A stretch of DNA of 64,000 nt from Paractinoplanes deccanensis (GTDB lineage: Bacteria > Actinomycetota > Actinomycetes > Mycobacteriales > Micromonosporaceae). The position numbers and the translations under genes are program-made. Each line of letters opens with the position of its first letter. Positions within the stretch are counted from its first letter, which is position 1. The notes beneath the pieces are model-generated. The model searched no databases. It worked only from the letters and a program-made list of their open reading frames with translations, and had not been told where the DNA came from. Location: positions 1 to 64,000 of the forward strand of contig NZ_BOMI01000013.1 in NCBI RefSeq assembly GCF_016862115.1, in the 5' to 3' direction. Positions 7,758 to 38,602 of the stretch are shown here, piece by piece.

Positions 7758-7785
7758 GATGACTCCTCGTGGAGGGGGGAATCTT

Positions 7786-8709
7786 TCACTGGTTCTTGCC
7801 GCGGCCGCGGTAGCGGGTCGGCATCTTCTCGGGGAGCCTGTGGGCGTCCACCGCACGAACGGTCAGCTCGAGCGCGTCGGCCGTGCGCTCGTAGGTGCGC
7901 TGGGCCACCGCCACGTAGATCATGTCGAGGACCAGCAGCTGGGAGTGGAGCGCGGAGAGGGCGGCGAGCCGGAACGTCGTCTCCTGCACCGCGGTGGTGA
8001 AGACGACGTCGGCGACCTCGGCCAGCGGCGAGCGGCTGTAGCTGGTGACCGCGACGGTGAGCGCGCCGTGGTCGGCCGCCTCGGCGAGCGTTTCGATGAC
8101 CTCACGGGTACGCCCGGAGTGCGACAGCCCGATCGCCACGTCCCCGGGCAGCAGCAGCGCGGCATTGGTGAGCGCGGTGTGCGAGTCGGGCCGGTGCCAC
8201 ACCGGCACCCGGATGCGCTCCAGGCGGAACGCCATCTCGCGCGCCGAGGTGCCGCTGCTGCCCAGCCCGAAGAGCTCGACCCGCTTCGCGCCGGCGATCG
8301 CGGCGGCGACCCGGTCGACGGCGGCCATGTCGAGCGCGGCCGCGGTGTCGTGGATGGCCCGGGTGTCGGCGGCGGTGACCACGCCGAGCACCTCGGTCAG
8401 CGGGTCGCTCGGGGCGATGTCGCCGCTGATGTCGGTCTCCCAACGGGCCTGCTCGGCCCGCCCGGTCTCGGTCGCCACGGCCACGCGCAGGTTCGCGTAC
8501 CCCTTGAAGCCCAGCGTGCGGCTGAACCGGGTGACCGTCGCCGTCGAGGTGCCGGACCGCTCGGCGAGGTCGACGATGCTCGCGTGCGCCGCGGCCTCCG
8601 GGTCGGCCAGGATCGTCTCGGCGATCCGCGCCAGGGCCTCCGGCATGCCGGGCCCCTCGATCCGCAGGCGGCCGAGCAGCCCGCCGCTTTCACCCGTCAC
8701 GTCGGTCAT
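7786..8709 (-). CDS. RpiR/MurR-family transcriptional regulator of the first amino-sugar operon
   Basis: A 307-residue regulator. Residues 25-100 form the RpiR helix-turn-helix (SIVDLAERSGTSTATVTRFS), and the C-terminal half is a SIS sugar-isomerase domain (VELFGLGSSGTSAREM, GLSHSGRTREVIE) that binds phosphosugars. It is the first gene of the leftward operon; its stop lies 28 bases before the binding-protein start. An alternative ATG at 8718 would add three residues. It is clearly paralogous to the regulator at 36825. An inverted repeat overlapping its own candidate promoter suggests autoregulation, with relief by a phosphorylated amino sugar produced by the divergent kinase. Confidence 0.92.
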   Translation of the reverse strand: MTDVTGESGGLLGRLRIEGPGMPEALARIAETILADPEAAAHASIVDLAERSGTSTATVTRFSRTLGFKGYANLRVAVATETGRAEQARWETDISGDIAPSDPLTEVLGVVTAADTRAIHDTAAALDMAAVDRVAAAIAGAKRVELFGLGSSGTSAREMAFRLERIRVPVWHRPDSHTALTNAALLLPGDVAIGLSHSGRTREVIETLAEAADHGALTVAVTSYSRSPLAEVADVVFTTAVQETTFRLAALSALHSQLLVLDMIYVAVAQRTYERTADALELTVRAVDAHRLPEKMPTRYRGRGKNQ

Positions 8710-8711
8710 CC

Positions 8712-8766
8712 TTTTCATCAGCTGCTGTTGCCGATGAAAATTACGACCGAAGGGTGAACTAGTCAA
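8712..8766 (-). promoter_or_regulatory. Promoter with overlapping inverted-repeat operator for the RpiR-led operon
   Basis: On the minus strand a -35 box TTGACT (8761-8766) is separated by 17 bases from a -10-like box TAATTT (8738-8743). A perfect 8-base inverted repeat, TTTTCATC at 8712-8719 and GATGAAAA at 8733-8740 with a 13-base spacer, covers the -10 box and the expected start of transcription. This is the layout of an autorepressor site. The arms are seen directly; binding by the adjacent RpiR protein is inferred. The 77-base region also lies between divergent genes, so the site may control the kinase too. Confidence 0.6.
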
Positions 8767-8795
8767 CAACTTTTGTCTGTGCTTCGATCGGGGCC

Positions 8796-9701
8796 ATGAC
8801 GTTGGTGGTCGGAGTGGATGCGGGCGGCACCTCCTCACGCGCGGTGGTCGCCACCACCACGGGCACCGTCGTCGGCCGAGGCCAGGCCGGCCCCGGCAAC
8901 CCGCTCACCGCCGGCCCCGCCCGCGCCGCCGCGTCGGTGGCCGCCGCCGTGCGCGACGCTCTGCAAGGGCGGCCCCCCGAGCAGATCGGCGCCGCCACCC
9001 TCGGCATAGCCGGCCCCGCCACGGCGTCCCAGTTCGCGCCCGCGCTGGCCGCCCTCGGCGTGACCGCCCCCGTCACGGTCACCGGCGACGTGGTGACGGC
9101 CTTCGCCTCGGGCACCCCCGCCCCGCACGGCGCGGTCCTCATCGCCGGCACCGGAGCGATAGCCGCCGCGGTGCGCGCCGGCGCCGTCGAGCGCACCTCG
9201 GACGGCCTGGGCTGGCTGCTCGGCGACGAGGGCTCGGGCCGCTGGCTGGGCCTGCGGGCGGTCCGCACGGCCGTACGAACGTGGTCCACCCCGTTCGCCG
9301 CCCGCGTGGCCACCCAGGTGGGCGTGGCCACGGCCGACGAGATGGTCTATTGGGCGCAGGCCCTGCCCTGGAACGAGATCGGCGACCTGGCCCCCCTGGT
9401 CTGCGAGACTGCCCGAGCGGGCGACCCCCACGCGACAGCCCTCGTCGCCGAGGCCGTCGCCCACCTGGTGCACACCCTCGACGACCTGGGCGCCGACGGC
9501 CCGATCGTGCTGGGCGGCGGCCTTCTGGCCTGCGACACCCCCGTGCGCGACGGCGTCCTCGGCGCCCTCCGGGCCCGCGGCCTGCACCCCCGCACGGCCC
9601 GGGACCCCGCCGCCGGCGCCGCCTGGCTCGCGGCTCGGCCGTTGAGCCCGCTCACCCCTACGGCACTGCACGAGGCGCTTTTGGGGCCACGGGTGCGCTA
9701 G
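8796..9701 (+). CDS. BadF/BadG-family N-acetylglucosamine-type kinase
   Basis: A 301-residue kinase of the BadF/BadG/BcrA ATPase superfamily, which includes eukaryotic-type N-acetylglucosamine kinases and bacterial MurK. The ATP phosphate-binding loop VVGVDAGGTSSRAVV opens the protein, GAVLIAGTGAIAAAV forms the second phosphate loop, and GWLLGDEGSGRWLG is the characteristic family motif. It is divergent from the RpiR-led transporter operon. Because ABC uptake delivers unphosphorylated sugar, this enzyme probably phosphorylates imported or hydrolysed N-acetylglucosamine at C6, making the likely effector of the regulator. The exact sugar is not provable from sequence. Confidence 0.87.
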   Translation: MTLVVGVDAGGTSSRAVVATTTGTVVGRGQAGPGNPLTAGPARAAASVAAAVRDALQGRPPEQIGAATLGIAGPATASQFAPALAALGVTAPVTVTGDVVTAFASGTPAPHGAVLIAGTGAIAAAVRAGAVERTSDGLGWLLGDEGSGRWLGLRAVRTAVRTWSTPFAARVATQVGVATADEMVYWAQALPWNEIGDLAPLVCETARAGDPHATALVAEAVAHLVHTLDDLGADGPIVLGGGLLACDTPVRDGVLGALRARGLHPRTARDPAAGAAWLAARPLSPLTPTALHEALLGPRVR

Positions 9702-9753: not shown

Positions 9754-10002
9754 ATGGCGGCCCTGAGCATCAGAGACCTCGACGACTCCGTGAAGGAGAA
9801 GCTTCGTCAGCGCGCGGCCCGGCACGGCCGCTCCATGGAGGCCGAGATCCGCCTGATCCTCACGGCGGCCGCCACCGAGGACGAGCGACCGCAGAACGAC
9901 CTCTTCAGTGCGTTGACCGAGCGGTTCACCCAGCTCGGGGGCGTGGACCTGGAGGTTCCTGCCCGAACCACCTCGCCGCGCGCGGCGGACCTCAGCGAGT
10001 GA
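9754..10002 (+). CDS. fitA: FitA-type ribbon-helix-helix antitoxin
   Basis: An 82-residue antitoxin. The N-terminal ribbon-helix-helix DNA-binding domain covers about residues 1-45 (ALSIRDLDDSVKEKL then RHGRSMEAEIRLIL). The flexible C-terminal tail should wrap around and neutralise the PIN toxin. The ATG is preceded by GGAGGG at a suitable distance. Its stop overlaps the toxin start by 4 bases, the usual arrangement for coupled toxin-antitoxin pairs. The pair likely represses its own promoter through the palindrome at 9697-9711. Confidence 0.9.
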   Translation: MAALSIRDLDDSVKEKLRQRAARHGRSMEAEIRLILTAAATEDERPQNDLFSALTERFTQLGGVDLEVPARTTSPRAADLSE

Positions 10003-10439
10003 TGATCGTCCTCGACACGAACGTCGTCTCCGAGCTCATGCGTGCCGCGCCCGAACCGGCTGTGCTCGCGTGGCTTCAACAGACGTCGAGCACTGGGCTC
10101 TACACCACAGCGGTGACCGTTGCCGAGATCCGCTATGGCATCGCGCGGCTACCAGAAGGCCGGCGTAGGCACACACTGCACCAAGCCGCCGACGAGATCT
10201 TCGCGGCGTTTCCGCGCCAGGTGCTGCCCTTCGACCTCGCTGCTGCCACCGCGTACGCGGACGTGGTCGCCGGCCGCGAGAGAGACGGCAATCCGATCAG
10301 TGGGTTCGACGGTCAGATTGCCGCAATCTGCCGCTCTCGCGCCGCGACCCTGGCCACGCGCAACATCAAAGACTTCACCGAGACGGGCATCGCCCTCGTT
10401 GATCCGTGGCAGGAGACGCGAGGGCGCGATCAGAGATAG
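9999..10439 (+). CDS. fitB: FitB/VapC-type PIN-domain toxin ribonuclease
   Basis: A 146-residue PIN-domain protein. The metal-binding acidic residues of the family are present: D6 in VLDTNVVSE, E43 in TVAEIRYGI, D104 in GFDGQIAA and D125 in NIKDF. Such toxins are magnesium-dependent ribonucleases held inactive by the partner antitoxin. The start overlaps the antitoxin stop by 4 bases. The last 10 bases overlap the end of the convergent SDR gene. All key residues are intact, so the toxin looks functional. The RNA target is unknown. Confidence 0.9.
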   Translation: MMIVLDTNVVSELMRAAPEPAVLAWLQQTSSTGLYTTAVTVAEIRYGIARLPEGRRRHTLHQAADEIFAAFPRQVLPFDLAAATAYADVVAGRERDGNPISGFDGQIAAICRSRAATLATRNIKDFTETGIALVDPWQETRGRDQR

Positions 10440-26478: not shown

Positions 26479-26543
26479 TATAGTCATGAAGCATGACCAG
26501 TGTCCTGCTCCGCGCTCCGGAAAGCCGCTCTTGTAGGTACAAT
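26479..26543 (+). promoter_or_regulatory. Promoter/operator region of the Phd-VapC pair
   Basis: Two -10-like boxes, TATAGT (26479-26484) and TACAAT (26538-26543), each overlap an inverted repeat: GTCATG-AAG-CATGAC at 26483-26497, and TTGTA-GG-TACAA at 26531-26542. This is the arrangement expected for autorepression by an antitoxin-toxin complex, possibly from two promoters. No good -35 boxes are visible, and binding is inferred. Confidence 0.45.
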
Positions 26544-26572
26544 CCCCTCAACGTAGGCACATCGTTGAGGGG
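26544..26572 (+). promoter_or_regulatory. Hairpin covering the antitoxin ribosome binding site
   Basis: CCCCTCAACG (26544-26553) pairs perfectly with CGTTGAGGGG (26563-26572) across a 9-base loop. The right arm contains the GAGGGG ribosome binding site of the antitoxin gene that starts at 26580. The stem could hide the ribosome binding site in the mRNA, or the repeat could act as a DNA operator. The pairing is seen directly; the effect on translation is inference. Confidence 0.5.
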
Positions 26573-26579
26573 GCAGCCG

Positions 26580-26864
26580 ATGGGCTCGGTGTCGGTGCGG
26601 GAGTTCTCCTACAACCCCAGTGCCATGTTCAACCGCGTCGAGCAGGGCGAGACGATCGAGGTCACGCGGCACGGCAAGGTCATCGCGGTGCTGCTCCCGG
26701 GCGCGACGGGCCTCGGCCGCTACTCGTCGCTGGTCGCCAAGGGGCTGATCCGGCTCAAGGCCACCACGACCGCCGACCTCGACCGCATACCGCCGTACGA
26801 CGTTCCGGGTGACGCTTCGCCGCTGGACCTGCTGCTGGAGGCCCGAGCCGAGGACGACCGTTGA
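26580..26864 (+). CDS. Phd/YefM-family antitoxin
   Basis: A 94-residue antitoxin. The N-terminal Phd/YefM DNA-binding fold is evident in VSVREFSYNPSAMFNRVEQGETIEVTRHGKVIAVLLP. The acidic C-terminal tail, with PLDLLLEARAEDD, should bind the toxin. The ATG is preceded by GAGGGGG inside a hairpin. The stop codon overlaps the TTG start of the PIN toxin by 4 bases. The pairing of a Phd-type antitoxin with a PIN toxin is common in actinobacteria. Confidence 0.88.
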   Translation: MGSVSVREFSYNPSAMFNRVEQGETIEVTRHGKVIAVLLPGATGLGRYSSLVAKGLIRLKATTTADLDRIPPYDVPGDASPLDLLLEARAEDDR

Positions 26865-27686: not shown

Positions 27687-28574
27687 TTAGCGGAGCTGGC
27701 CGGCCGCCAGGCCGCTCTGGAACTGGCGGTGGAACAGCAAGTAGGCGGCGATCACCGGGAGCATGGCGATGGTCATGCCGGCGAAAAGGCCGCTGAAGTC
27801 GCCCCGGTACCCCTCGTTGACGGCCAGCGCGGTCAAGCCCTGGGCCAGGACCCATCTCTTGTCCGCGCCCTCGCCCTGCATCAGGACGATCGGCAGGACG
27901 TACTGGTTCCACTGGAACAGGAAGGTGAAGATGCCGACGCTGACCAGGCCGGGGCGGGCCATGGGCAGCATGACGCTGAAGAAGAGGCGGAAGTGGCCGC
28001 ACCCGTCGACCATGGCGGCCTCGGCGACCGAGGTGGGCAGGGTGCGGAAGAACGCGGTCAGGAAGAACACGGTGAACGGCAGGGAGTAGGCCGCGTACAC
28101 CAGAGTCAGGCCGGGCAGGGTGCCCAGGAGGCCCAGGTTGCGGACGACGAAGAAGAGCGGCACCAGGGCCAGGAAGACCGGGAACATCATGCCGCCGACG
28201 AAGGCGTAGTAGATGACGCGGGCGCCGCGGAAGCGGTAGCGGGCCAGGATGTAGGCGGCCATGGCGCCGAGCAGCATGGTCAGGGTGAGGGCGCCGGTCA
28301 CGACGATGGCGCTGTTCAGGAAGTAGCGGCCGATGTGGGCCTCGTTCCAGGCGCGCTCCCAGTTCTCCCAGCGCAGGCGGGACGGCAGGCTCCACGGGTC
28401 GGTGAGGATCTCGTTGTCGCTCTTGAAGGAGCTGAGCACGGCCCACAGCAGCGGCAGCGTGGTGAGCAACGCCCAGCCAGCCAGGAACACGTGGGATAAA
28501 ACGGGCACCGTAGAGCGGGGTCGCGGCGGCGACGGAACTGGAACCGAGGAGCGCGGGCGGGTGAGCACAGCCAT
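27687..28574 (-). CDS. ngcG: NgcG-type amino-sugar ABC transporter permease
   Basis: A 295-residue CUT1 permease with a basic, proline-rich cytoplasmic N-terminus of about 28 residues and six transmembrane helices. The EAA loop reads EAAMVDGCGHFRLFF near residue 190. It directly follows the other permease gene with no gap and closes the operon beginning with the AmiE-like hydrolase. It pairs with the NgcF-type permease. The actinobacterial Ngc system is known to carry N-acetylglucosamine and chitobiose; in this cluster N-acetylmuramic acid is a possible alternative cargo. No ATPase is encoded locally. Confidence 0.88.
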   Translation of the reverse strand: MAVLTRPRSSVPVPSPPRPRSTVPVLSHVFLAGWALLTTLPLLWAVLSSFKSDNEILTDPWSLPSRLRWENWERAWNEAHIGRYFLNSAIVVTGALTLTMLLGAMAAYILARYRFRGARVIYYAFVGGMMFPVFLALVPLFFVVRNLGLLGTLPGLTLVYAAYSLPFTVFFLTAFFRTLPTSVAEAAMVDGCGHFRLFFSVMLPMARPGLVSVGIFTFLFQWNQYVLPIVLMQGEGADKRWVLAQGLTALAVNEGYRGDFSGLFAGMTIAMLPVIAAYLLFHRQFQSGLAAGQLR

Positions 28575-29480
28575 CTACAGCTCCACCCGATCGCGCCGCG
28601 TCACGCGCAGGAACATGGCGGCGACCGTGAGGGTCAGGAAGAACATCGCCACGCCGATCGCCGACGCGTAGCCGAACTGGCCGTCGGCGAAGGCCGCCTT
28701 GTAGAGGCGCAGGCCCACCACGTCCGACGACGAGGACGGGCCGCCGTCGGTGATGATCTGCACGATCGCGAAGCCGTCGATCGCGATGATGGCCAGGTAG
28801 ACCCAGGCGACCTGGATGGTGTCCCACAGCAGCGGCACGGTCAGGCGCACCAGCGTGGTGAGCCGGCTCGCGCCGTCGAGCAGCGCGGCCTCGTACAGGT
28901 CGCGGGGGATCGACTGCATGGCGGCGCTGAACAGGACCACGTAGAAGCCGACGTTCATCCAGATCATCACGGCCATCACGCACCAGAACGAGAACCGTGG
29001 GTCGCCGAGCCACGCCACCGCCAGCCCGTCCAGGCCGGCGGCGCGGAGGAAGCCGTTGATCATGCCGGTGTGCGGGGCGTACATCTCCTTCCAGAGCACG
29101 CCGACGATCGCGACCGACAGCACCTGCGGGAAGAAGTAGACGACGCGGTAGAAGGCCGATCCCCGGACGCCGTGGACGCCCGCCCGGTCGGCGCGGCCGC
29201 CCACGCTGATCATCGAGGCGAGGAAGAGGCCGAGCAGGATCGTCACCACCGGCAGCAGCAGGAGCAGCCAGGCGTTGTGGCGCAACGCGTTCCAGAAGTA
29301 GCCGTCCTCGGCGAGCCGGCGGAAGTTGTCCAGCCCGACGAAGTCGTACGTCGGGGACAGCCCGCTCCAGTCGGTGCCGGCGATCTGGAACGCCTGCGCG
29401 TACGGCGAGACGACGAAGATCCCGTACAGCAGCAGGGGTGGAATGAGGAAGACGGCGATGAACAGCCGCGTGCCGCGCAC
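28575..29480 (-). CDS. ngcF: NgcF-type amino-sugar ABC transporter permease
   Basis: A 301-residue CUT1 permease with six transmembrane helices, starting almost immediately after the binding-protein gene. The EAA loop reads EAALLDGASRLTTLVRL near residue 197. The sequence around GPSSSSDVVGLRLYKAAFAD near the C-terminus is typical of the NgcF branch. It forms the translocation pathway with the second permease. Because both permeases and the binding protein match one known system, the name is used with moderate confidence. Confidence 0.88.
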   Translation of the reverse strand: MRGTRLFIAVFLIPPLLLYGIFVVSPYAQAFQIAGTDWSGLSPTYDFVGLDNFRRLAEDGYFWNALRHNAWLLLLLPVVTILLGLFLASMISVGGRADRAGVHGVRGSAFYRVVYFFPQVLSVAIVGVLWKEMYAPHTGMINGFLRAAGLDGLAVAWLGDPRFSFWCVMAVMIWMNVGFYVVLFSAAMQSIPRDLYEAALLDGASRLTTLVRLTVPLLWDTIQVAWVYLAIIAIDGFAIVQIITDGGPSSSSDVVGLRLYKAAFADGQFGYASAIGVAMFFLTLTVAAMFLRVTRRDRVEL

Positions 29481-29481
29481 C

Positions 29482-30882
29482 TCAGGCCCGCTTGTACTTC
29501 TTGATCGCGGGGTCCTGGGCGAACTCGTCGGCCGACTTCTGGATCTTGTCGCACCACTGGGCGGCGGTGATCCGCTTGGCGTACAGCTCGGCGGAGGCCG
29601 CGTCGACGCGCTCGCGTTCCAGCTTGCGGTAGTACGACGAGTAGAGCCAGGTGAACGCGGTGCCCTTCGACGCGTCGATCAGCCCGGTCACCGACGTGAG
29701 GCCCGGGCCCAGGTCGATGCCCTCGCTCGACCCGCGCACGCAGGTGAGGCTGCTGACCTTGCGGGTGAAGTCGGCGGCGCCCTGCCGGGACAGCATGACG
29801 CGCAGGTATTCGAGCCCGCCGCGCACGTTCTTGCCCTTCGACGGCACCACGAACGGCTCGCTGCCGGTGCCGCGGAACGCCTCGTACGGCATCTTGTCGC
29901 TCGTCGTGAGGCTCGGCGTGGGCGCGACGGCCATGCGGAAGTCCGGTGGGGTGACCGCCTTCTGCTCGTTCTCGAGCCACGATCCGCAGGAGACGAACGC
30001 GGCCTTGCCCCGGCACCACTCGGTCTGCGACTGCACGTGGTCCATGCCCTCGGCGCCCGGCTGCAGGTACCCGTCCACAGCGAGCTGGTAGTACGCCTCC
30101 GCGGCGGCCTTGACGGCGTCGTGCTTCCAGGCGTTCGGCTCCAGGTTGTCGATCGCCTTGATCACGTCGAGGCCGCCCATCTTGCCGGCGGCGGCGAGGA
30201 TCGGCCAGCTCATGTAGCGGGCGTGCTTGCCGGGATACGTCCACGGCGCGATGCCGGCCGCCTTGATCTGCTTGCAGAGGGCGATCATGTCGTCCCAGGT
30301 CCTCGGGTACGCCCAGCCTTTCGCCTCGAAGAGCTTCTGCGAATACCAGATGCCGTACGCCGAGTAGGCGTAGTTCAGCGACAGGAACTTCCCGTCGTAC
30401 GAGCCGACGTCGACGATGCCCGGCAGCAGCGTGTCGCGGACCTTCGTGTCCGGGTCGTCCAGGCTCGGCGCGTCGAGCAGCTCGCCGAGGTCGGCGAGGG
30501 CGCCCTGGGAGACGAGCCCGTTGAAGTCGATCTGGCTGCCGCCCGAGTTGTTGACCACGTCGGGCGGATCGCCGGCGACGAACCGGGGCTGGAGCGTCTC
30601 GGCGATCTGCTGGGTGGCCGAGTGCTTGATCTCCGCCTGCGGGTGGCGCTGCCGGTACATGGCCTCGTGCGCCTTCGCGTACTCCTCGCCGAAGCCGCCG
30701 TTGAAGATGACCACCTCGAGCGGCGCGTCCTCCTTGACGCCCAGCGGGTTGCTCGCGCTGGTCTCGCCCTTGGCGTCGTCCTCGGCGTCGTCGCCGCCCA
30801 TGGCGCACCCGGCCAGCGTGCTCGCCGCGGCGACGCCGGCCGCGCCCTGCAGTAGTCCGCGCCGGCTGATCGTGTGTCCCAT
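29482..30882 (-). CDS. ngcE: NgcE-type binding lipoprotein for N-acetyl amino sugars
   Basis: A 466-residue solute-binding protein. A twin-arginine motif SRRGLL is followed by a hydrophobic core and lipobox LAGC (Cys26), so it is probably a Tat-exported lipoprotein, as in NgcE proteins. The mature start NPLGVKEDAPLEVVIFNGG and KAHEAMYRQRHP strongly recall the actinobacterial N-acetylglucosamine/diacetylchitobiose binder NgcE. Neighbouring MurNAc enzymes raise the possibility that this copy binds MurNAc, GlcNAc-MurNAc or related muropeptide sugars. It begins 13 bases after the AmiE-like gene. Confidence 0.88.
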   Translation of the reverse strand: MGHTISRRGLLQGAAGVAAASTLAGCAMGGDDAEDDAKGETSASNPLGVKEDAPLEVVIFNGGFGEEYAKAHEAMYRQRHPQAEIKHSATQQIAETLQPRFVAGDPPDVVNNSGGSQIDFNGLVSQGALADLGELLDAPSLDDPDTKVRDTLLPGIVDVGSYDGKFLSLNYAYSAYGIWYSQKLFEAKGWAYPRTWDDMIALCKQIKAAGIAPWTYPGKHARYMSWPILAAAGKMGGLDVIKAIDNLEPNAWKHDAVKAAAEAYYQLAVDGYLQPGAEGMDHVQSQTEWCRGKAAFVSCGSWLENEQKAVTPPDFRMAVAPTPSLTTSDKMPYEAFRGTGSEPFVVPSKGKNVRGGLEYLRVMLSRQGAADFTRKVSSLTCVRGSSEGIDLGPGLTSVTGLIDASKGTAFTWLYSSYYRKLERERVDAASAELYAKRITAAQWCDKIQKSADEFAQDPAIKKYKRA

Positions 30883-30895
30883 GCTCGGCTCCCGC

Positions 30896-32632
30896 CTAAG
30901 TGTTCGGTAAGGGGTTCCAGCCGTCGGCGGCGAACGGGGTCGTGCCGTCGACGAGGGTCGCGCCGGGCTCGGCGACCCGGATCCGGCCGAGGAGGACGCC
31001 GCGGCCCTGCGAGTTCGCGTCGGTGCGGTAGGTGAAGCGCAGCGCGGTGGTGCCGGCCGGCACGTCGGCCGTGACCTGCCACCAGTGCCGGCCGCCGAAT
31101 CCGGTGAGCGTCCCGTCGCTGGTCAGCGTGTCCCGGCGATCGTGCAGGGTCAGCGGTACGAGGGTCCAGGTCACGCCGTCCGCGGACCACTCGACGGCGG
31201 CGGTGTCGGCGCGCGGCTCGGTGTCGTACCAGAGCAGGAACGACGCCCGTGCCCGATCGCCGGCCGGGCGCCGCAGCGGCGCGGTCAGGGTCATGACGGC
31301 GTTGTCGCGCAGCTGGGTCCGCCAGTCGCCGCCCACGATGGGACGAGCGTCGGCAAAGGCACGGGCGAGAGCGCGCCGCGCCACGTTGTTGCCGCCCCAG
31401 GCCCGGTCCGGGTGCACCCGGTTGCTGAGCAGCACGAGGAACGACTGGTCGAGCGGGTCGATGACGATCGACGTGCCGGTGAAGCCGGTGTGCCCGAAGG
31501 TGACCGGCGAGGTCATTCCGTCCATGTACCAGTGCTTGGCGAGCTCGAAGCCGAGCCCGCGGGCGCTCTCCGGGTATTGCGGCAGCAGGTCGGCGTTGTA
31601 GTTGACCAGCGCCTGGCGCACCATCGCCTCGGACAGGATGCGCCGGCCCCGGTAGGAGCCGCCGTCGAGCAGCGTCTGGCACAGGACGGCCAGGTCGCCC
31701 GCGGTGGAGAAGACCCCGGCGTGTCCCGCCACGCCGCCGAGCGACCACGCGTTCTCGTCGTGCACCTCACCCCAGACCAGACCGCGGTTCACGTACGGCT
31801 GGTACTCGGTCGCCGCGGTCCGCTGCCGCAGCTCCGGGCCGGGGCGGTAGCCGGTGTCCCGCATGCGCAGCGGGCCGGTGACGCCGTCGCGTACGGCGGT
31901 GGCCAGGGGTTTGCCGGTGACGCGCTCGATCAGCACGCCGAGCGCGATGAGCCCGATGTCGGAGTAGACGTACTGCCGGCCGGGCACGGACCCGGCGGTG
32001 ACCGGCGTCGCCAGGGCGGCGGCGAAGCGCTCCTCGGGCGTGGGATAGCGCGAGTAGAACGGCAGGAACGCCGGCAGCCCGGAGGTGTGGGTGAGCAGGT
32101 GCCGGATCGTCACGTCCTGCTTGCCGCCGGCCGCGAACTCCGGGACGTACGTGGCGACCGGCGCGTCGAGGCTCACCCGGCCGGCCTCGGCCTGCTGGAG
32201 CACCACGATCGTGGTGAAGAGCTTGGAGATCGAGGCAAGGTCCCACAGCGTGTCCGTACGGGCGGGAACGCGCTCGCCCGGGGGCAGCTCGGCGATGCCG
32301 GCCGGGCCCGCGGTGTAGCGGACCGCGTCGCCGACCGCGAAGCGCGACACCACGACGCCGTGGCGGGCGGCGAGAACGGTGGCTCCCGCGTACGTGGGAT
32401 GGTCGGGGTGGTCGGGCGTCGGTCGTAAATATGACTCGGCGACGGCGGGCAGCGCGGCCACCGGGCCCGGCAGCAGGCCGGCCTGGCGGGCGGTGCCGGC
32501 GCGCAGCACATCGTGCCGGAAGTGGATGTCGGCGGGGGTCACGACAGGCCCCTGAGCTGGGGCTGCGGTCGCCGGCGCGCCCACGGTGAGACCGGCGGCC
32601 AGACAGAGCGGGAGCAGCACCAGAAGTCTCAT
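30896..32632 (-). CDS. Secreted serine hydrolase, AmiE/penicillin-binding-protein-like (beta-lactamase superfamily)
   Basis: A 578-residue exported serine hydrolase. A signal peptide covers about residues 1-24. The beta-lactamase/PBP fold has the active-site motif S134-I-S-K137, a YSD motif in place of YxN, and HTG in FGHTGFTG. The C-terminal 150 residues form an extra beta-rich domain. In Bacillus the homologous position of the mur-nag locus is held by AmiE, which strips peptides from muropeptides; this protein could do the same, though esterase or peptidase activity is possible. The ATG at 32632 is chosen because it gives a proper signal peptide. It heads the leftward operon with ngcEFG. 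Confidence 0.8.
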   Translation of the reverse strand: MRLLVLLPLCLAAGLTVGAPATAAPAQGPVVTPADIHFRHDVLRAGTARQAGLLPGPVAALPAVAESYLRPTPDHPDHPTYAGATVLAARHGVVVSRFAVGDAVRYTAGPAGIAELPPGERVPARTDTLWDLASISKLFTTIVVLQQAEAGRVSLDAPVATYVPEFAAGGKQDVTIRHLLTHTSGLPAFLPFYSRYPTPEERFAAALATPVTAGSVPGRQYVYSDIGLIALGVLIERVTGKPLATAVRDGVTGPLRMRDTGYRPGPELRQRTAATEYQPYVNRGLVWGEVHDENAWSLGGVAGHAGVFSTAGDLAVLCQTLLDGGSYRGRRILSEAMVRQALVNYNADLLPQYPESARGLGFELAKHWYMDGMTSPVTFGHTGFTGTSIVIDPLDQSFLVLLSNRVHPDRAWGGNNVARRALARAFADARPIVGGDWRTQLRDNAVMTLTAPLRRPAGDRARASFLLWYDTEPRADTAAVEWSADGVTWTLVPLTLHDRRDTLTSDGTLTGFGGRHWWQVTADVPAGTTALRFTYRTDANSQGRGVLLGRIRVAEPGATLVDGTTPFAADGWNPLPNT

Positions 32633-32744
32633 TATCAACGCCTTTCGATACGCCGATTCGTCGAGGATGGATGTTTCCTTCGCGACTTGCAAGAGGGGTG
32701 AAGGTTATTGCCATCGCTCCGTGACCCGGCTACCTTCCGACAAC
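32633..32744. promoter_or_regulatory. Divergent promoter region between the AmiE-ngcEFG and nagZ-namZ operons
   Basis: This 112-base region must carry promoters for both operons. I see a TTGCAA on each strand (it lies at 32687-32692 and is nearly symmetric) but no well-spaced -10 box on either side and no perfect long inverted repeat. It is the natural place to look for binding of the MurR-like regulator encoded at 36825. Confidence 0.4.
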
Positions 32745-34463
32745 ATGCGGACGCGTACTGTCGCTCTCCTCGCCCTCGCCGCCCTGGGCGTCCCGGCCGC
32801 CGGGGTCCCGAAGGCCTCGCCCGTCGACGCGCTCCTGGCCCGCATGACGCTGCCGGAGAAGGTCGGGCAGCTGTTCACCACGTACGCCTACGGCAGCGAC
32901 GCCCACACAGTGTCGGCCGAGAACCGCCGCCTCTACGGCGTGGACACTCCGGCCGAGGTCGTCGCGAAATACCACCTCGGCGGCGTCATCTACTTCGCCT
33001 GGACGAACAGCCTGCAGAACCCGCGGCAGATCGCCACGCTGAGCAACGGGCTCCAAGCCGCCGCCACCCGCGTGCCGCTCGCCATCTCCACCGACCAGGA
33101 GCACGGCGTGGTCACCCGCATGCCGGCGCCCGCCACCCAGTTCCCCGGCGGCATGGCGCTCGGCGCCGGGCGCGACCCGGCCGGCGCGTACCGCACCGGG
33201 CAGGTCACCGGCCGCGAGCTGCGCGCCGTCGGCATCACCCAGGCCTGGGCGCCGGTCGCCGACGTCAACGTCAACCCGGCCAACCCGGTCATCGGGGTGC
33301 GCTCGTTCGGCAGCGACCCCGGCCTCGCCGCCACGATGACCGCGAGCCAGGTGCTCGGGTTGCAGCGCGGCGCCAACACGTCGGCCGCCGCCAAGCACTT
33401 CCCGGGCCACGGCGACACCGCCACCGACAGCCACACCGGCCTGCCGGTGATCACGCACACCCGCGAGGAGTGGCAGCGCGTCGACGCGCCACCGTTCCGG
33501 GCCGCGATCGCCGCCGGCGCCGACGCGATCATGAGCGCGCACATCGTGGTGCCGGCGCTCGACCCGTCCGGTGACCCGGCCACCCTGTCGAAGCCGATCC
33601 TCACCGGGCTGCTCCGCGGCGAGCTCGGCTACCGCGGCGTGATCGTCACCGACTCGCTGGAGATGGCCGGGGTCCGGCAGAAGTACGGCGACGAGCGGGT
33701 GCCGGTGCTGGCCCTCAAGGCGGGCGCCGACATGCTGCTGATGCCGCCGAACATGCAGGTGGCGTACGACGCCGTGCTCGGCGCGGTCGCCTCCGGCGAG
33801 CTCACCGAGGCGCGCATCGACGAGTCGGTGCGCCGCGTCCTCACCCTCAAGCAGAAGCGTGGCCTGCTCACCTGGCAGCCCGTCGACCCGGAGGCCGCCG
33901 CCCGCACGGTCGGCTCGGCCGGCAACGTCCGCGTGGCCCAGGCGGTCACCGACCGCACGATCACGGCCGTGCGCAACGAGGGCGGCCTGCTGCCCCTCGC
34001 CGAGGGCAGGTCGGTGCTGGTGACCGGCTGGAACTCCAGTGCCACCAACAACGTCACGACGCTGGCCGGCGAGCTCGGCGCCACACCGCTGGTCACCGGC
34101 CTCCCGGACGACGCCAAGATCGCCGAGGCGGTCACGGCGGCCAACGCGCACGACGTGACGGTGGTGCTCACCAGCCGGGCGTGGGACACCACCACCGCCG
34201 ATCCGGGCGGCCGTCAGCAGGCCCTGGTCAAGGCGCTGGTGGCGACGGGCAAGCCGGTCGTGCTGGTCGCGGTGCGCGACCCGTACGACGTCGGGTCGCT
34301 GCCCGGCACCGGCGCCGCGCTGGCGACGTACAGCTCCTCGGTGGTCTCCATGAAGGCGCTCGCCAAGGTGCTGCGCGGCGACCTCCCGCCGCGGGGCAAG
34401 CTCCCGGTCGAGATTCCCGGGCACTATCCGTACGGGTACGGGCTGAGCTGGAGCGTCCGGTGA
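32745..34463 (+). CDS. nagZ: Exported beta-N-acetylglucosaminidase, GH3, NagZ-like
   Basis: A 572-residue GH3 enzyme with a short N-terminal signal-like hydrophobic stretch (residues 5-22). The NagZ signature KHFPGHGDTATDSH is at 217-230 and supplies the catalytic Asp228-His230 pair; the nucleophile is D303 in VTDSLEM. A C-terminal alpha/beta domain from about residue 390 makes it the two-domain type found in Bacillus, not the short Gram-negative NagZ. It should release N-acetylglucosamine from the non-reducing end of cell-wall fragments outside the cell. It is coupled to namZ by a 4-base overlap. The start is uncertain because no clear ribosome binding site precedes it; a GTG lies 24 bases upstream. 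Confidence 0.93.
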   Translation: MRTRTVALLALAALGVPAAGVPKASPVDALLARMTLPEKVGQLFTTYAYGSDAHTVSAENRRLYGVDTPAEVVAKYHLGGVIYFAWTNSLQNPRQIATLSNGLQAAATRVPLAISTDQEHGVVTRMPAPATQFPGGMALGAGRDPAGAYRTGQVTGRELRAVGITQAWAPVADVNVNPANPVIGVRSFGSDPGLAATMTASQVLGLQRGANTSAAAKHFPGHGDTATDSHTGLPVITHTREEWQRVDAPPFRAAIAAGADAIMSAHIVVPALDPSGDPATLSKPILTGLLRGELGYRGVIVTDSLEMAGVRQKYGDERVPVLALKAGADMLLMPPNMQVAYDAVLGAVASGELTEARIDESVRRVLTLKQKRGLLTWQPVDPEAAARTVGSAGNVRVAQAVTDRTITAVRNEGGLLPLAEGRSVLVTGWNSSATNNVTTLAGELGATPLVTGLPDDAKIAEAVTAANAHDVTVVLTSRAWDTTTADPGGRQQALVKALVATGKPVVLVAVRDPYDVGSLPGTGAALATYSSSVVSMKALAKVLRGDLPPRGKLPVEIPGHYPYGYGLSWSVR

Positions 34464-35755
34464 AACGGCGCGCCGTCCTCGCCGCCGGCGTCGCGACGGG
34501 TCTCGCCGTCGGCGCGGAACCGGCGGCCGCCGGGTCGCCGTCGAGGGTCCGTACCGGCCTGGACCGGCTCGCCGCCCGGGGCTGGGACACGCTGCGGGGC
34601 ACGCGCGTCGGCGTGGTCTCCAACCCGACGGGCGTCGACCGGTCGTACCGCCACCTGGTCGACCGCATGCACGCCGACGGGGTCACCATCGGCGGCGTCT
34701 TCGGGCCCGAGCACGGCTTCCGCGGCTCGGCGCAGGCCGGCGGCAGCGAGGGCACCGGCGTCGACGCGCGCACCGGGCTCACCGTCTACGACGCCTACCT
34801 GGCCTCCCTCTCCCGCTGGACCGAGATGTTCACCGCGGCGGGGGTGGGCACGGTGGTCTTCGACATCCAGGACGTGGGTGCGCGCTTCTACACCTACATC
34901 TACACGCTGTACGACTCGATGGCGGCGGCCGCACAGCTCGGGCTCCGCTACGTGGTGCTCGACCGGCCCAACCCGATCGGCGGCCGCGCGTACGGGCCGA
35001 TGATGACCGACGGCTACACCTCCGGCGTGGGCCGGCTCGCGATCGTGCAGCAGCACGGCATGACCGTGGGCGAGCTGGCCCGCTTCTACAACGGCGAGTT
35101 CCTCTCCGGCGCGGTCCGCCTCGAGGTGATCGCCTGCCAGGGCTGGACAGGGCGGCTGCGCGCGGCCGACACCGGCGTGCCGTGGGTCATGCCCAGCCCC
35201 AACATGCCGACCCCGGACACGGCGGCGGTCTATCCGGGCACGGGGATGTTCGAGGGGGTGTCCTCACTGTCCGAGGGGCGCGGCACCACCCGGCCGTTCG
35301 AGCTGATCGGCGGGCCGGGCTTCGACTACCACTGGGGCGACCGGGTGGCGGCGCTCGGGCTGCCCGGCGTGGAGTTCCGGGAGGCGTACTTCACGCCGAC
35401 GTTCAACAAGTTCAGCGGGGTGCTGTGCGCGGGCGTCGAGGTGAAGGTGACCGACCCGGGCGTGTTCGACCCGATCCGCACGGCGGTCGGCATGCTCGTC
35501 GAGGGACGCAAGTCGCCGGCCTTCGCGTGGCGGCTCGACGGCAGCCGCTACTGGATCGACCTGCTCACCGGCTCGGCGCGGCTCCGCACGATGATCGACG
35601 CGGGCGCGACGACCGGCGAGGTGACGGGGGCGTGGGCGGCGGAGTTGCGCGCCTTCTCGGCGCAGCGGCGGCCCTATCTGCTGTATCCGCGGCCGGGCTC
35701 CTCCGGCTCGGTCCCGTCGGGGGCCGGTCCGCTCGCGCCGCGGGCCGGCTCGTGA
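34460..35755 (+). CDS. namZ: Exo-beta-N-acetylmuramidase NamZ, GH171 (DUF1343)
   Basis: A 431-residue member of DUF1343, the family shown in Bacillus subtilis to be NamZ, which removes N-acetylmuramic acid from the non-reducing end of peptidoglycan fragments. Family motifs are clear: GVVSNPTGVD near residue 45, FGPEHGFRG near 80, FDIQDVGARFYTYIYT near 135 and SPNMPTPDTAAVYPGT near 245. An N-terminal KRR followed by a hydrophobic stretch suggests Tat-type or Sec export. The GTG start overlaps the nagZ stop by 4 bases. The last 82 bases overlap the convergent kinase gene. Confidence 0.93.
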   Translation: MKRRAVLAAGVATGLAVGAEPAAAGSPSRVRTGLDRLAARGWDTLRGTRVGVVSNPTGVDRSYRHLVDRMHADGVTIGGVFGPEHGFRGSAQAGGSEGTGVDARTGLTVYDAYLASLSRWTEMFTAAGVGTVVFDIQDVGARFYTYIYTLYDSMAAAAQLGLRYVVLDRPNPIGGRAYGPMMTDGYTSGVGRLAIVQQHGMTVGELARFYNGEFLSGAVRLEVIACQGWTGRLRAADTGVPWVMPSPNMPTPDTAAVYPGTGMFEGVSSLSEGRGTTRPFELIGGPGFDYHWGDRVAALGLPGVEFREAYFTPTFNKFSGVLCAGVEVKVTDPGVFDPIRTAVGMLVEGRKSPAFAWRLDGSRYWIDLLTGSARLRTMIDAGATTGEVTGAWAAELRAFSAQRRPYLLYPRPGSSGSVPSGAGPLAPRAGS

Positions 35756-36786
35756 ATGCTGCTGGTCAGGCGGGCGTGCACCACCGGGGGCACGGGGGCG
35801 CCGGTGAGCCGTCCGAGGGCCAGCGCGGCGGCTCCGCCCGCGCCGTCGAGCGCGGGGCGGGGCTCGCCCGCGGTGCGCGCGCGAAGGCCGGCGCGCACCG
35901 CACGGCCGACCGGCCCGGGAGTGAGCAGGACCGAGCCGGCCAGCACCACGGCAGCGCCGGGTGGCGGCTCGACGCTGTCGTAGGTGTGCAGCAGCCGCGC
36001 GGCGGCCGCCGCGCAGATCCGCCCGGCCACGGGGTCGCCGCCGTCCGCCGCGGCGCTGACGGCGGGCGCGAATCGCCCGAGCGCGGCGGGCGGGACGGCG
36101 AACCCGGCCGCGAGCAAGGCCTGAGCCGTCTCCTCATGGCGCGCGGCGTCCGCCTCTTCACGGCCCGCGCCGCCTGCCTTTTCACGGCCCGCGCCGCCCG
36201 CCGCCTCATGGCGCGCGATGTCCATGTCGAAATGGGCGCACGCCTCCTCCACCAGGGTCGTCCACTCTCCTCGGCCGTCGAGGGCGGCCAGCACCGCGCG
36301 CAGCGCCCGCACGGCGATCCACACCGCGGAGCCCTCGTCGCCCAGCAGCCAGCCGTATCCGTCGCAGCGCCGCCGCAGCTCCCCGCCCGCGAACCGGGCC
36401 GCCAGCGCGCCGGTGCCCGCCAGCAGGAGCACCCCGTCGGCCGCGGGCGTGCCGGCCGCGTACGCCACCTCGAGGTCTGTCGCCGTCACCACCTCGCCGG
36501 TCAGGCCGGCGTCGCGCCAGGCCCGCAGCGCGGCCGCCCGGAACGCCTCGCGGCCCGCGCCGGCCGATCCCGCCGCGCCGAGAACCCCGAGCCGCACGCT
36601 CGCCGGATCCACAGTGGCCAGCGCTTCGGCGAGCGCCACGCCCAGGGTCGCGGTCACCTCGCCGCCGCTGCTGTTGCGGTTCGCGCCTCCCGCCGTACCC
36701 CTGCCCCGCACGTGGCCGTCGACCGTCGCGATCACGCACCGCGTGGTGGTGGCACCCGCATCGACCCCCATCACCAGGGTTGCCAT
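35674..36786 (-). CDS. BadF/BadG-family amino-sugar kinase, MurK-like candidate
   Basis: A 370-residue kinase of the same superfamily as the gene at 8796. The phosphate-binding loop is VMGVDAGATTTRCVIA, followed by LLLAGTGALAARF and GYGWLLGDEGSAVW. It lies between namZ and murR-murQ, so N-acetylmuramic acid is a strong candidate substrate; MurK-type kinases phosphorylate both MurNAc and GlcNAc at C6. A low-complexity insert at about residues 190-219, rich in Gly, Ala, Arg and Glu, comes from a 24-base DNA repeat and probably forms a surface loop. The C-terminal coding end overlaps namZ by 82 bases on the opposite strand. Confidence 0.85.
   Translation of the reverse strand: MATLVMGVDAGATTTRCVIATVDGHVRGRGTAGGANRNSSGGEVTATLGVALAEALATVDPASVRLGVLGAAGSAGAGREAFRAAALRAWRDAGLTGEVVTATDLEVAYAAGTPAADGVLLLAGTGALAARFAGGELRRRCDGYGWLLGDEGSAVWIAVRALRAVLAALDGRGEWTTLVEEACAHFDMDIARHEAAGGAGREKAGGAGREEADAARHEETAQALLAAGFAVPPAALGRFAPAVSAAADGGDPVAGRICAAAAARLLHTYDSVEPPPGAAVVLAGSVLLTPGPVGRAVRAGLRARTAGEPRPALDGAGGAAALALGRLTGAPVPPVVHARLTSSIHEPARGASGPAPDGTEPEEPGRGYSR
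36132..36217. repeat. Short repeats inside the MurK-like kinase gene
   Basis: The 18-base unit TTCACGGCCCGCGCCGCC occurs at 36157-36174 and again at 36181-36198, a 24-base period, and CCTCATGGCGCGCG flanks them at 36132-36145 and 36204-36217. Both periods keep the reading frame. The repeats encode the Gly/Ala/Arg/Glu-rich insert of the kinase. The gene at 8796 lacks this insert, so copy number may vary between strains. Confidence 0.8.
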
Positions 36787-36824
36787 CCACCGACCGTACC
36801 CCCCGATCGAAGGAATACATCTCC

Positions 36825-37700
36825 ATGACTACGCCGGTCACGGTCCGAGCGCGCGGCCTGCTGCCGTCGCTGTCCCCGGCCGAACAGCGGGTGGCCCGAG
36901 TGATCATCGACGAGGCCGCCACCGCCTCCCGGCTGACGATCACCGACCTCGCCGAGCGTGCCGGCTCCAGCGAGACCACCGTGATCCGGTTCTGCCGGGC
37001 GCTGGGCTTCGCCGGCTACTCCCAGCTGCGGCTGACCCTGGCCACCGAGGCCGGGCGCGCCCCGTCCGCCGAGGAGCCGGTGGGCAGCGACATCAGCGCG
37101 AGCGACGACCTCGCCGAGGTGGTCAAGAAGATCGCCTTCGCGGACGCCCGAGCGGTCGAGGAGACGGCCTCGCAGATCGACATCGCGGTGCTGGAGCAGG
37201 TCGTCGGCCTGGTGGCCGGCGCGCGGCGGGTGGACATCTACGGTGTCGGCGCGAGCGCGTTCGTGGCCACGGACTTCCAGCAGAAGCTGCACCGCATCGG
37301 GCGCGTCGCGTACGCCTGGAGCGACACCCACGTGGCCCTCACCAGCGCCGCCCTGCTCGACGAGCGCGACGTGGCGTTCGGCATCTCGCACACCGGCACG
37401 ACCAGCGACACCATCGACGCGTTCGCCGAGGCGGGCCGGCACGGCGCGCGCACTGTCGCGCTGACGAACTTCCCGAAGTCCCCGATCACCCGCGTCGCCG
37501 ACCTGGTGCTGACCACCGCGGCCCGCGAGACCACGTTCCGCTCCGGCGCGATGGCCAGCCGCCTCGCCCAGCTCACCGTCATCGACTGCGTCTTCGTCGG
37601 CGTCGCCCAGCGCACCTACCAGGAGACAAGAACAGCCTTGGACGCCACGTACGAGGCCGTGCGCGGCCGCCGGATCGGCACCGACCGGAGCCGCGCGTGA
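36825..37700 (+). CDS. murR: RpiR/MurR-family regulator of the MurNAc island
   Basis: A 291-residue regulator with an N-terminal RpiR helix-turn-helix (TITDLAERAGSSETTVIRFCRALGF at about 35-60, quoted in two parts elsewhere as TITDLAERAGSS and ETTVIRFC) and a C-terminal SIS domain (VDIYGVGASAFVATDF, GISHTGTTSDTID). SIS-domain MurR proteins sense MurNAc-6-phosphate, the substrate of the enzyme encoded directly downstream. The ATG is preceded by AAGGA. It is paralogous to the regulator at 7786. The murQ gene overlaps its stop by 4 bases. Confidence 0.9.
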   Translation: MTTPVTVRARGLLPSLSPAEQRVARVIIDEAATASRLTITDLAERAGSSETTVIRFCRALGFAGYSQLRLTLATEAGRAPSAEEPVGSDISASDDLAEVVKKIAFADARAVEETASQIDIAVLEQVVGLVAGARRVDIYGVGASAFVATDFQQKLHRIGRVAYAWSDTHVALTSAALLDERDVAFGISHTGTTSDTIDAFAEAGRHGARTVALTNFPKSPITRVADLVLTTAARETTFRSGAMASRLAQLTVIDCVFVGVAQRTYQETRTALDATYEAVRGRRIGTDRSRA

Positions 37701-38602
37701 GGCCCGTGGAGGAGGCGCCGCTGGCGCGCACCGAGCAGCGCAACCCGCACAGCGCCACCATCGACCAGATGTCCACCCCCGACCTGCTCCGCCTGATCAA
37801 CGAGGAGGACAGCCAGGTCCCGGCCGCGGTCGCCCGCGTCCTGCCCGAACTGGCCGCCGCCGTGGAGCTCGCCGTGACCGCCCTGGCCGCCGGTCACCGG
37901 GTGCACTACGTCGGCGCGGGCACCTCCGGCCGGATAGCGGTCCTCGACGCGGCCGAGCTGATCCCCACCTTCGGCCTCGACCCCGACCGCGTGGTGGCCC
38001 ACCTGGCCGGCGGCCCGCGAGCCCTGACCCGCCCCGCCGAGGACGCCGAGGACGACGAGATAGCCGGCGCCGCCATAGCCGGCCAGGTGGTCGAGGGCGA
38101 CCTGGTCGTCGGCGTCACCGCGAGCGGCCGCACCCCCTACGTCCGGGCGGCCCTGGCCGCGTCCCGGGCCTGCGGCGCCCGCACGGTCCTGGTGTCGGCC
38201 AACCCGGCGTCACCGATAGCCACCGGCGTGGACGTGCACATAGCCCCCGACACCGGCCCCGAGGTGCTGACCGGCTCCACTCGCATGAAGGCGGGAACCG
38301 CACAGAAGCTGGTCCTGAACGCCTTCTCCACAGCCACGATGGTCCGGCTGGGCCGCACCTACTCCAACCTGATGACCGACATGCTGGCCGGCAACGCCAA
38401 ACTGCGAGACCGCCGCCTCCGCATCCTGGCCGAGGCGACGGGCGCCGACCTGGAGAGCTGCCGAGAGGCGTTGGAGGCCGCCCAGGGCGACGCCAAGGTG
38501 GCCGTGGTGACGCTGATAGCCGGCGCCACCACGGAGGCGGCCGGCCGGGCCCTGGCGGAGGCGGGCGGCCACGTCCACCTCGCGTTGCGGCACCTCGACT
38601 GA
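37697..38602 (+). CDS. murQ: N-acetylmuramic acid 6-phosphate etherase
   Basis: A 301-residue SIS-domain lyase that cleaves the lactyl ether of MurNAc-6-phosphate to give GlcNAc-6-phosphate and lactate. The opening EQRNPHSATIDQMST and GAGTSGRIAVLDAAELIPTFG are family hallmarks. The two catalytic acids expected from the E. coli enzyme (E83 and E114) correspond to E87 and E115 here. TGSTRMKAGTAQKLVLN is also conserved. The GTG start at 37697 overlaps the murR stop by 4 bases; a second GTG lies three codons later. Its presence is the strongest evidence that the whole island handles MurNAc. Confidence 0.96.
   Translation: MRPVEEAPLARTEQRNPHSATIDQMSTPDLLRLINEEDSQVPAAVARVLPELAAAVELAVTALAAGHRVHYVGAGTSGRIAVLDAAELIPTFGLDPDRVVAHLAGGPRALTRPAEDAEDDEIAGAAIAGQVVEGDLVVGVTASGRTPYVRAALAASRACGARTVLVSANPASPIATGVDVHIAPDTGPEVLTGSTRMKAGTAQKLVLNAFSTATMVRLGRTYSNLMTDMLAGNAKLRDRRLRILAEATGADLESCREALEAAQGDAKVAVVTLIAGATTEAAGRALAEAGGHVHLALRHLD

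Follow-up and report, generated by a model that had tools for sequence, protein, structure and literature searches.

A MurNAc salvage locus of Paractinoplanes deccanensis in which a CUT1 ABC importer and a BadF-type kinase probably do the job of MurP

Introduction

We consider a locus at positions 27687-38602 of a stretch of DNA from Paractinoplanes deccanensis (contig NZ_BOMI01000013.1, positions 1 to 64,000; the whole stretch of 64,000 nucleotides is further referred to as the window). We believe, with a probability of about 75%, that the locus serves the salvage of N-acetylmuramic acid (MurNAc), and that an ATP-binding cassette (ABC) importer of the CUT1 family together with a cytoplasmic kinase does the job of MurP, a permease of the phosphotransferase system (PTS). 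The genes named in the original prediction (AmiE-like hydrolase, NgcEFG, NagZ, NamZ, BadF-type kinase, MurR and MurQ) are all found in their predicted places, and the domain scores bear out the names (Table 1).

The ybbC gene of Bacillus subtilis corresponds to namZ. The MurNAc cluster of that species, given as murQ-murR-murP-amiE-nagZ-ybbC in the excerpted text of PMC5061867, has murQ, murR, an amiE-like gene, nagZ and namZ in common with our locus, whereas the latter lacks murP, contains ngcEFG together with a gene for a BadF-type kinase, and is divergent in its gene order. The locus does not belong to the MurP type, because MurP was tested for and is absent.

Results

The linkage of the importer to namZ and murQ, on which the original prediction depends, was checked in relatives and was not refuted. 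The search covered 60 genomes, 36 of them from the Actinoplanes (genus) group. Among these 36, murQ was found in 15, namZ in 17 and an NgcE of the window type (68-100% identity) in 12; each of the 12 lies within 10 kb of murQ. The 60 genomes gave 69 NgcE matches altogether; the remaining 57 (41-52% identity) belong to a genome without murQ, to another contig, or to a place hundreds of kb from murQ. A search of GTDB with the window NgcE gave 36 loci. The nine with at least 65% identity (Actinoplanes/Paractinoplanes, Planosporangium and Dactylosporangium) all carry murR and murQ, with a kinase match in eight and a namZ match in eight; the other 27 (25 Streptomyces, 2 Glycomyces) have no murQ in the flank examined. 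Among the named NgcE proteins, the one from Paractinoplanes atraurantiacus is closest (94% identity), and certain NgcE proteins are identical between the genus sample and the named Actinoplanes loci (L078/L134, L080/L140, L097/L139). Since the gene arrangement recurs in relatives, it is more than chance. Dactylosporangium roseum (L083) keeps murQ-murR-kinase-ngcEFG and shows no hydrolase match in its stretch of 21.4 kb, which is what one unit made up of transport, kinase and etherase would lead one to expect.

A pair of CUT1 permeases is present in all 15 murQ loci of the Actinoplanes group: 12 have NgcEFG, and three genomes (G118, G123 and G130; loci L130-L132) have a different solute-binding protein (SBP) with two CUT1 permeases, directly after murQ. 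Only one of 20 control regions (stretches of 19.9 kb at round positions in four genomes) contains such a pair. The BadF-type kinase is found in 13 of the 15 loci. As a separate observation, the five Actinoplanes-group loci with namZ and without murQ (L144-L148) show no nagZ or CUT1 match in the stretch examined.

The sample of the whole class comprised 118 genomes, 39 of them with murQ over the cut-off, and gave 46 murQ loci for analysis (47 matches minus the window's own). Six loci have the CUT1 pair within 10 kb of murQ, 14 have Dpp-type permeases within 10 kb, and nine have a PTS EIIC gene within 2 kb; 17 loci have none of these. The BadF-type kinase is present in five of the six CUT1 loci, in 0/14 with Dpp-type permeases, in 0/9 with EIIC and in 3/17 of the remainder (CUT1 against the rest, Fisher p=2.3e-4, uncorrected for kinship). 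The PTS phosphorylates a sugar during import; an ABC importer does not. A kinase that accompanies CUT1 and does not accompany the PTS is what the chemistry asks for, because ABC import leaves the sugar unphosphorylated. Some stretches stop at contig ends (e.g., L043, L053, L060, L066, L069 and L075), for which reason the absences in them are weak.

With CUT1 in 6/46 loci, its presence beside murQ as a class-wide rule was rejected. The original prediction of an ABC version of the locus is supported for the Actinoplanes group (15/15) and is too broad if taken for actinomycetes as a whole: EIIC lies within 2 kb of murQ in eight of ten Streptomyces loci (family f17 being taken as Streptomyces from its loci), and other families have Dpp-type importers. 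The one EIIC gene that was typed (L034, 10916-12400) has the MurP model as its best match, with 339.9 bits, under the cut-off of 516. The loci with a Dpp/Opp-type importer and no BadF kinase match are L032, L045-L051, L053, L054, L060, L062, L075 and L076; it is possible that these are muropeptide importers feeding MurQ via another kinase. In another family of the class, L064 (4076-15000) holds the full cluster nagZ-namZ-amiE-murR-murQ-SBP-two permeases-kinase; its SBP falls far short of the NgcE cut-off.

The genome (10.6 Mb, Actinoplanes group) is consistent with the replacement of MurP. The original prediction that no PTS gene is present was borne out for the genes of the locus and, with respect to EIIC (PF02378, 0 matches), for the whole genome. 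PF02302 has no match in the genome either; this family, which we take not to be the IIB family of MurP, was dropped as a PTS test in favour of PF02378. A single HPr domain occurs outside the locus within an open frame of 1046 amino acids. No AnmK match was found in the genome; therefore, the anhydro-MurNAc route to MurNAc-6-phosphate (MurNAc-6P) seems absent too. NagA is present. The locus contains no ATPase gene for the importer, and three UgpC-type ATPases over the cut-off are encoded in the genome; in Streptomyces sugar importers the ATPase is usually not encoded with the importer, according to the excerpted text of PMC6167110. Only two BadF-family proteins score over the cut-off, both within the window (ROK kinases were not searched). 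The absence of EIIC and AnmK matches, together with the association between kinase and importer, supports the original prediction that an ABC importer plus a kinase replace MurP.

The NgcE proteins linked to murQ form a separate clade. In a tree of 64 rows (61 of them different), the 21 murQ-linked rows are set off from all others by a branch with SH-aLRT 100, apart from the Streptomyces NgcE and from the Actinoplanes paralogues, and murQ linkage needs one change on the tree. This clade joins two other Actinoplanes/Glycomyces groups with support 99, the three-way branching order being not resolved. One sister group (L092, L108, L114, L116-L120, L122 and L123) has the BadF-type kinase in 10/10 loci and an RpiR match in 9/10 (not L120), without murQ; in L092, from Glycomyces, a SIS-domain sugar isomerase stands before ngcE. 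These murQ-less loci look like a form of the same module for N-acetylglucosamine (GlcNAc).

Nineteen NgcE columns (residues 54-458), among them Arg337, Trp226, Thr339 and Arg419, are conserved within the murQ clade but rare in every one of the other groups; a twentieth, Met1, is a trimming artefact. Arg337 and Trp226 are specific to the clade, and Arg337 is invariant there and aligned near a sugar-contacting residue. Arg222 is likewise invariant among the clade members, and neither of the two sister groups has it. The pocket was mapped by sequence alignments, which are two residues apart at Arg337, with a numbering offset of 47 derived from two NagB1 tryptophans. It is tempting to propose that the arginine at 337 may be a partner for the lactyl carboxylate carried by O3 of MurNAc. 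The NgcE of S. coelicolor binds MurNAc with a Kd of 25 uM, against 1.9 uM for GlcNAc (excerpted text of PMC6167110), which makes a muramyl ligand plausible for proteins of this family. An AlphaFold model of the window NgcE (pLDDT 90.1) was compared with solved structures by Foldseek and VIA-align; the nearest ones bind lacto-N-biose-type sugars and chitin oligosaccharides. As ligand evidence this search was rejected, considering that it places NgcE among SBPs for di- and oligosaccharides and does not settle the ligand.

The best PDB sequence match of the kinase bears the name MurNAc/GlcNAc kinase; the profile NF046058 (NagK_SO3507) scores 56.3, below its cut-off of 370. In the excerpted texts available, the MurNAc kinase MurK of T. 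forsythia belongs to the BcrAD/BadFG family PF01869 (PMC5790795), the residues T94 and S133-P134-L135 are named as deciding (PMC10465942), and a dual MurNAc/GlcNAc kinase is described in C. acetobutylicum (PMC10465942, PMC5790795). The window kinase is of the same family as these enzymes (the family being stated for T. forsythia), whereas the S-P-L specificity loop of MurK corresponds to D-G-Y in the window kinase; the kinases of murQ-less NgcEFG loci mostly have D-G-L. The Thr before the catalytic Asp (T94 of MurK) occurs in 17 of 18 rows of the window type. In a PDB profile alignment the same Thr is found in human NagK and in 1zc6, with Asn in 8zo3, which is named a MurNAc/GlcNAc kinase; the residue was dropped as a MurNAc signature on this ground. 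We presume that a dual MurNAc/GlcNAc kinase is as likely here as a strict MurNAc kinase. A dual kinase would let the locus use the GlcNAc released by NagZ, if NgcE also takes GlcNAc.

Of 18 distinct clade-A loci, 14 have the near-palindrome GGAAANTTTCC with no more than two mismatches (10 of them with no more than one) between the kinase gene and murR, just before murR. It also precedes other murR genes (7/8 in Streptomyces, 8/16 elsewhere) and was found before ngcF in none of the 18 clade-A loci; the chance level is 3.2% for 320-base segments taken from the control stretches and 7.6% for such segments taken from the clade-A loci. At the hydrolase promoters the strict palindrome is rarer (amiE 6/16, nagZ 4/11). 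The window apart, 20 clade-A loci (three duplicates among them) were searched for the form AAGGAAACNTT with at most one mismatch; 18 have it, with 42 sites in all or 10.4 per 100 kb, against three of the 20 control stretches, where the density is 0.75 per 100 kb. Counting distinct clade-A loci and the window among them, 12 of 18 have this form in front of amiE, nagZ or ngcE; in L142, where amiE is missing, it stands directly before ngcE. We read the motif as a candidate operator of MurR.

As to the layout of the locus, the minus-strand row reads amiE-ngcE-ngcF-ngcG with short gaps, the amiE-like gene being the first. On the plus strand, nagZ and namZ overlap by 4 bases (the namZ start over the nagZ stop), as do murR and murQ, and the end of the kinase gene overlaps the end of namZ on the opposite strand. 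For amiE, nagZ, namZ and murR, the start was placed inside the longest open reading frame (that of amiE was moved to 32632); the GTG start of murQ is read at 37697, inside a longer open frame, and the TIGR00274 score of MurQ was obtained with 7 extra N-terminal residues. By inspection of the sequence, the AmiE-like protein has the motifs SISK, YSD and HTG, and NagZ has the His/Asp loop KHFPGHGD..DSH and the motif VTDSLEM; both, as well as NamZ, begin with export-signal-like N-termini (seen by eye, with no predictor). NgcE starts with a twin-arginine and the lipobox LAGC. The AmiE-like protein has no PDB match at 1e-20, NamZ has the PDB relatives 4k05 and 4jja, and two conserved Glu of MurQ, which we take to be catalytic, align with those of 4s12.

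Table 1. Features of the window (positions are those of the 64,000-nucleotide stretch)
Feature	Position	Strand	Remarks
ngcG-like permease (CUT1 ABC importer)	27687..28574	-	PF00528 (BPD_transp_1) 62.6 bits
ngcF-like permease	28575..29480	-	PF00528 (BPD_transp_1) 48.1 bits; abuts ngcG, same strand
ngcE-like solute-binding lipoprotein	29482..30882	-	TIGR03851 612.5 bits, cut-off 399.65
amiE-like secreted serine hydrolase, predicted MurNAc-L-Ala amidase	30896..32632	-	PF00144 (Beta-lactamase) 223.7 bits
candidate MurR operator AAGGAAACATC	32670..32680	-	one mismatch to AAGGAAACNTT; amiE/nagZ divergent promoter
nagZ, secreted GH3 beta-N-acetylglucosaminidase	32745..34463	+	PF00933 298.9 bits
namZ (GH171 exo-beta-N-acetylmuramidase)	34460..35755	+	PF07075 231.5 bits, PF20732 155.3 bits
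BadF/BadG-type sugar kinase, predicted MurNAc (perhaps GlcNAc) kinase	35674..36786	-	PF01869 90.9 bits, cut-off 31.5
imperfect copy of the murR-upstream palindrome, GAAGGAATACATCTCC	36809..36824	+	between kinase gene and murR
murR-like RpiR-family regulator (HTH_6+SIS)	36825..37700	+	PF01418 61.0 bits, PF01380 83.2 bits
murQ, MurNAc-6-phosphate etherase	37697..38602	+	TIGR00274 310.6, cut-off 302; NF003915 368.3, cut-off 168
GH20 hexosaminidase	3035-4636	-	
two CUT1 permeases	4640-5467 and 5464-6429	-	
SBP of the parallel locus	6426-7856	-	
RpiR regulator	7786-8838	-	43% identical to the window's MurR
divergent BadF-type kinase	8796-9701	+	36% identical to the kinase at 35674-36786

The window contains a parallel locus (the last five rows of Table 1), which looks like a GlcNAc/hexosaminide counterpart of the murQ locus. 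In addition, a gene for a Phd/YefM-type antitoxin (26493-26864, PF02604) adjoins the murQ locus, and a PIN-domain gene is found at 9999-10439.

Discussion

The proposed route is as follows. Outside the membrane, the exported AmiE-like amidase would strip the peptide from muramyl residues, NagZ would remove GlcNAc, and NamZ would release MurNAc, which the lipoprotein NgcE would bind. The flux would then be directed inwards: NgcFG may import MurNAc unphosphorylated, powered by a shared ATPase of the MsiK/UgpC type encoded elsewhere; the BadF-type kinase would convert it to MurNAc-6P, and MurQ would convert the latter to GlcNAc-6-phosphate and D-lactate, to be followed by NagA. MurR, presumably sensing MurNAc-6P, would control the promoters of murRQ, amiE-ngcEFG and nagZ-namZ via an operator of the GGAAANTTTCC type.

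Several observations weigh against this proposal. By score, the window NgcE is far above the cut-off of the equivalog TIGR03851, whose named ligands are GlcNAc and diacetylchitobiose; its clade-specific columns are weakly enriched near the sugar contacts (p from 0.016 to 0.24 depending on the distance), and Arg222 is also found in 8 of 27 other rows. The pocket residues of the kinase do not discriminate MurNAc from GlcNAc specificity. Two of the 15 Actinoplanes-group murQ loci (L132 and L141) are without the BadF kinase in the stretch examined. Class-wide, CUT1 near murQ is a minority, and one of these six loci (L059) has the CUT1 pair 8 kb from murQ and no kinase. As for regulation, the murR promoter of the window is degenerate, with no copy of GGAAANTTTCC within 2 mismatches; the site at 32670 alone is not beyond chance in the motif search within the window; and the AAGGAAACNTT site is missing from L130-L132, whose murQ is accompanied by the other importer.

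The explanation that survives best among the others, which we nevertheless consider unlikely, is that NgcEFG imports GlcNAc, the product of NagZ, and that the kinase acts on GlcNAc, while MurNAc enters by an unlinked route and another kinase feeds MurQ. It agrees with the family name of NgcE and its known ligands, with the presence in the locus of a NagZ that would release GlcNAc, and with the kinase being as similar to GlcNAc kinases as to MurNAc kinases. However, this clade of NgcE is found only beside murQ (12/12); NgcEFG loci with the BadF kinase and without murQ do exist separately, eight of them in the Actinoplanes group (L114, L116-L120, L122 and L123; seven with an RpiR match); Dactylosporangium keeps the importer, kinase, murR and murQ with no nagZ match; and the genome has no AnmK or PTS EIIC match to supply MurNAc-6P.

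It is more doubtful still that the importer takes a larger fragment (the GlcNAc-MurNAc disaccharide or a MurNAc-peptide), which is trimmed inside the cell. Relatives of the NgcE fold do bind di- and trisaccharides (9h0p, 7eho; PMC8233162), and the Dpp-type importers within 10 kb of murQ in 14 of the 46 class loci mean that peptide-type import may serve relatives; nevertheless, trimming is expected outside the cell, given the export-signal-like starts of the AmiE-like protein, NagZ and NamZ, and CUT1 importers are sugar importers by family. Finally, the insertion of an NgcEFG operon beside a MurNAc locus with no shared function is hardly credible and already contradicted: CUT1 operons are common in actinomycetes, and even one control region has the pair, but every murQ locus of the genus group has a CUT1 importer, two different SBP groups occupy the same slot, and an operator-like motif is common to the promoters of murR and of amiE/nagZ/ngcE.

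Returning to MurNAc import by NgcEFG, we are inclined, with somewhat less confidence than for the salvage route as a whole, to a more specific form of it. The NgcE branch would be a receptor dedicated to MurNAc, in which Arg337, perhaps together with Arg222, clamps the lactyl carboxylate; within a regulon controlled by MurR, the ABC-plus-kinase module would have taken the place of the MurP PTS, and in one genus group different SBPs would have come to fill its slot on at least two occasions.

Among known systems, the Streptomyces NgcEFG, an importer of GlcNAc and diacetylchitobiose (excerpted text of PMC6167110), resembles ours in having an NgcE-type SBP and two permeases with no ATPase in the cluster; it differs in the NgcE clade and in the residues at 226 and 337, and 0/25 Streptomyces loci found with NgcE have a murQ or murR match in the flank examined. 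By its score the window NgcE belongs to the NgcE family, and its ligand is predicted to have changed. The Agrobacterium YejBEF-YepA system, as excerpted from PMC9790009, likewise recovers peptidoglycan fragments by ABC transport, but it is a muropeptide transporter, in contrast to the CUT1 sugar importer with a kinase considered here. We found no description of a CUT1/NgcEFG importer for MurNAc in the literature searched, most subscription papers being outside its coverage.

Conclusions

MurNAc recycling in S. coelicolor depends on MurQ: according to the excerpted text of PMC5061867, murQ mutants of this species accumulate MurNAc-6P and the authors found no MurP orthologue. M. smegmatis shows MurQ-dependent MurNAc recycling with no MurP reported in the excerpted text of a 2026 preprint (PMC13041923), which speculates on an "unknown transporter" for MurNAc. 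The locus described here offers a candidate for the missing MurNAc uptake route in soil bacteria of the Actinoplanes type. It also suggests a rule that can be tested elsewhere: a CUT1 importer beside murQ should come with a BadF-type kinase, and a PTS gene beside murQ should come without one. For Micromonosporaceae, the locus names a candidate MurNAc importer, kinase and regulator, together with specific residues.

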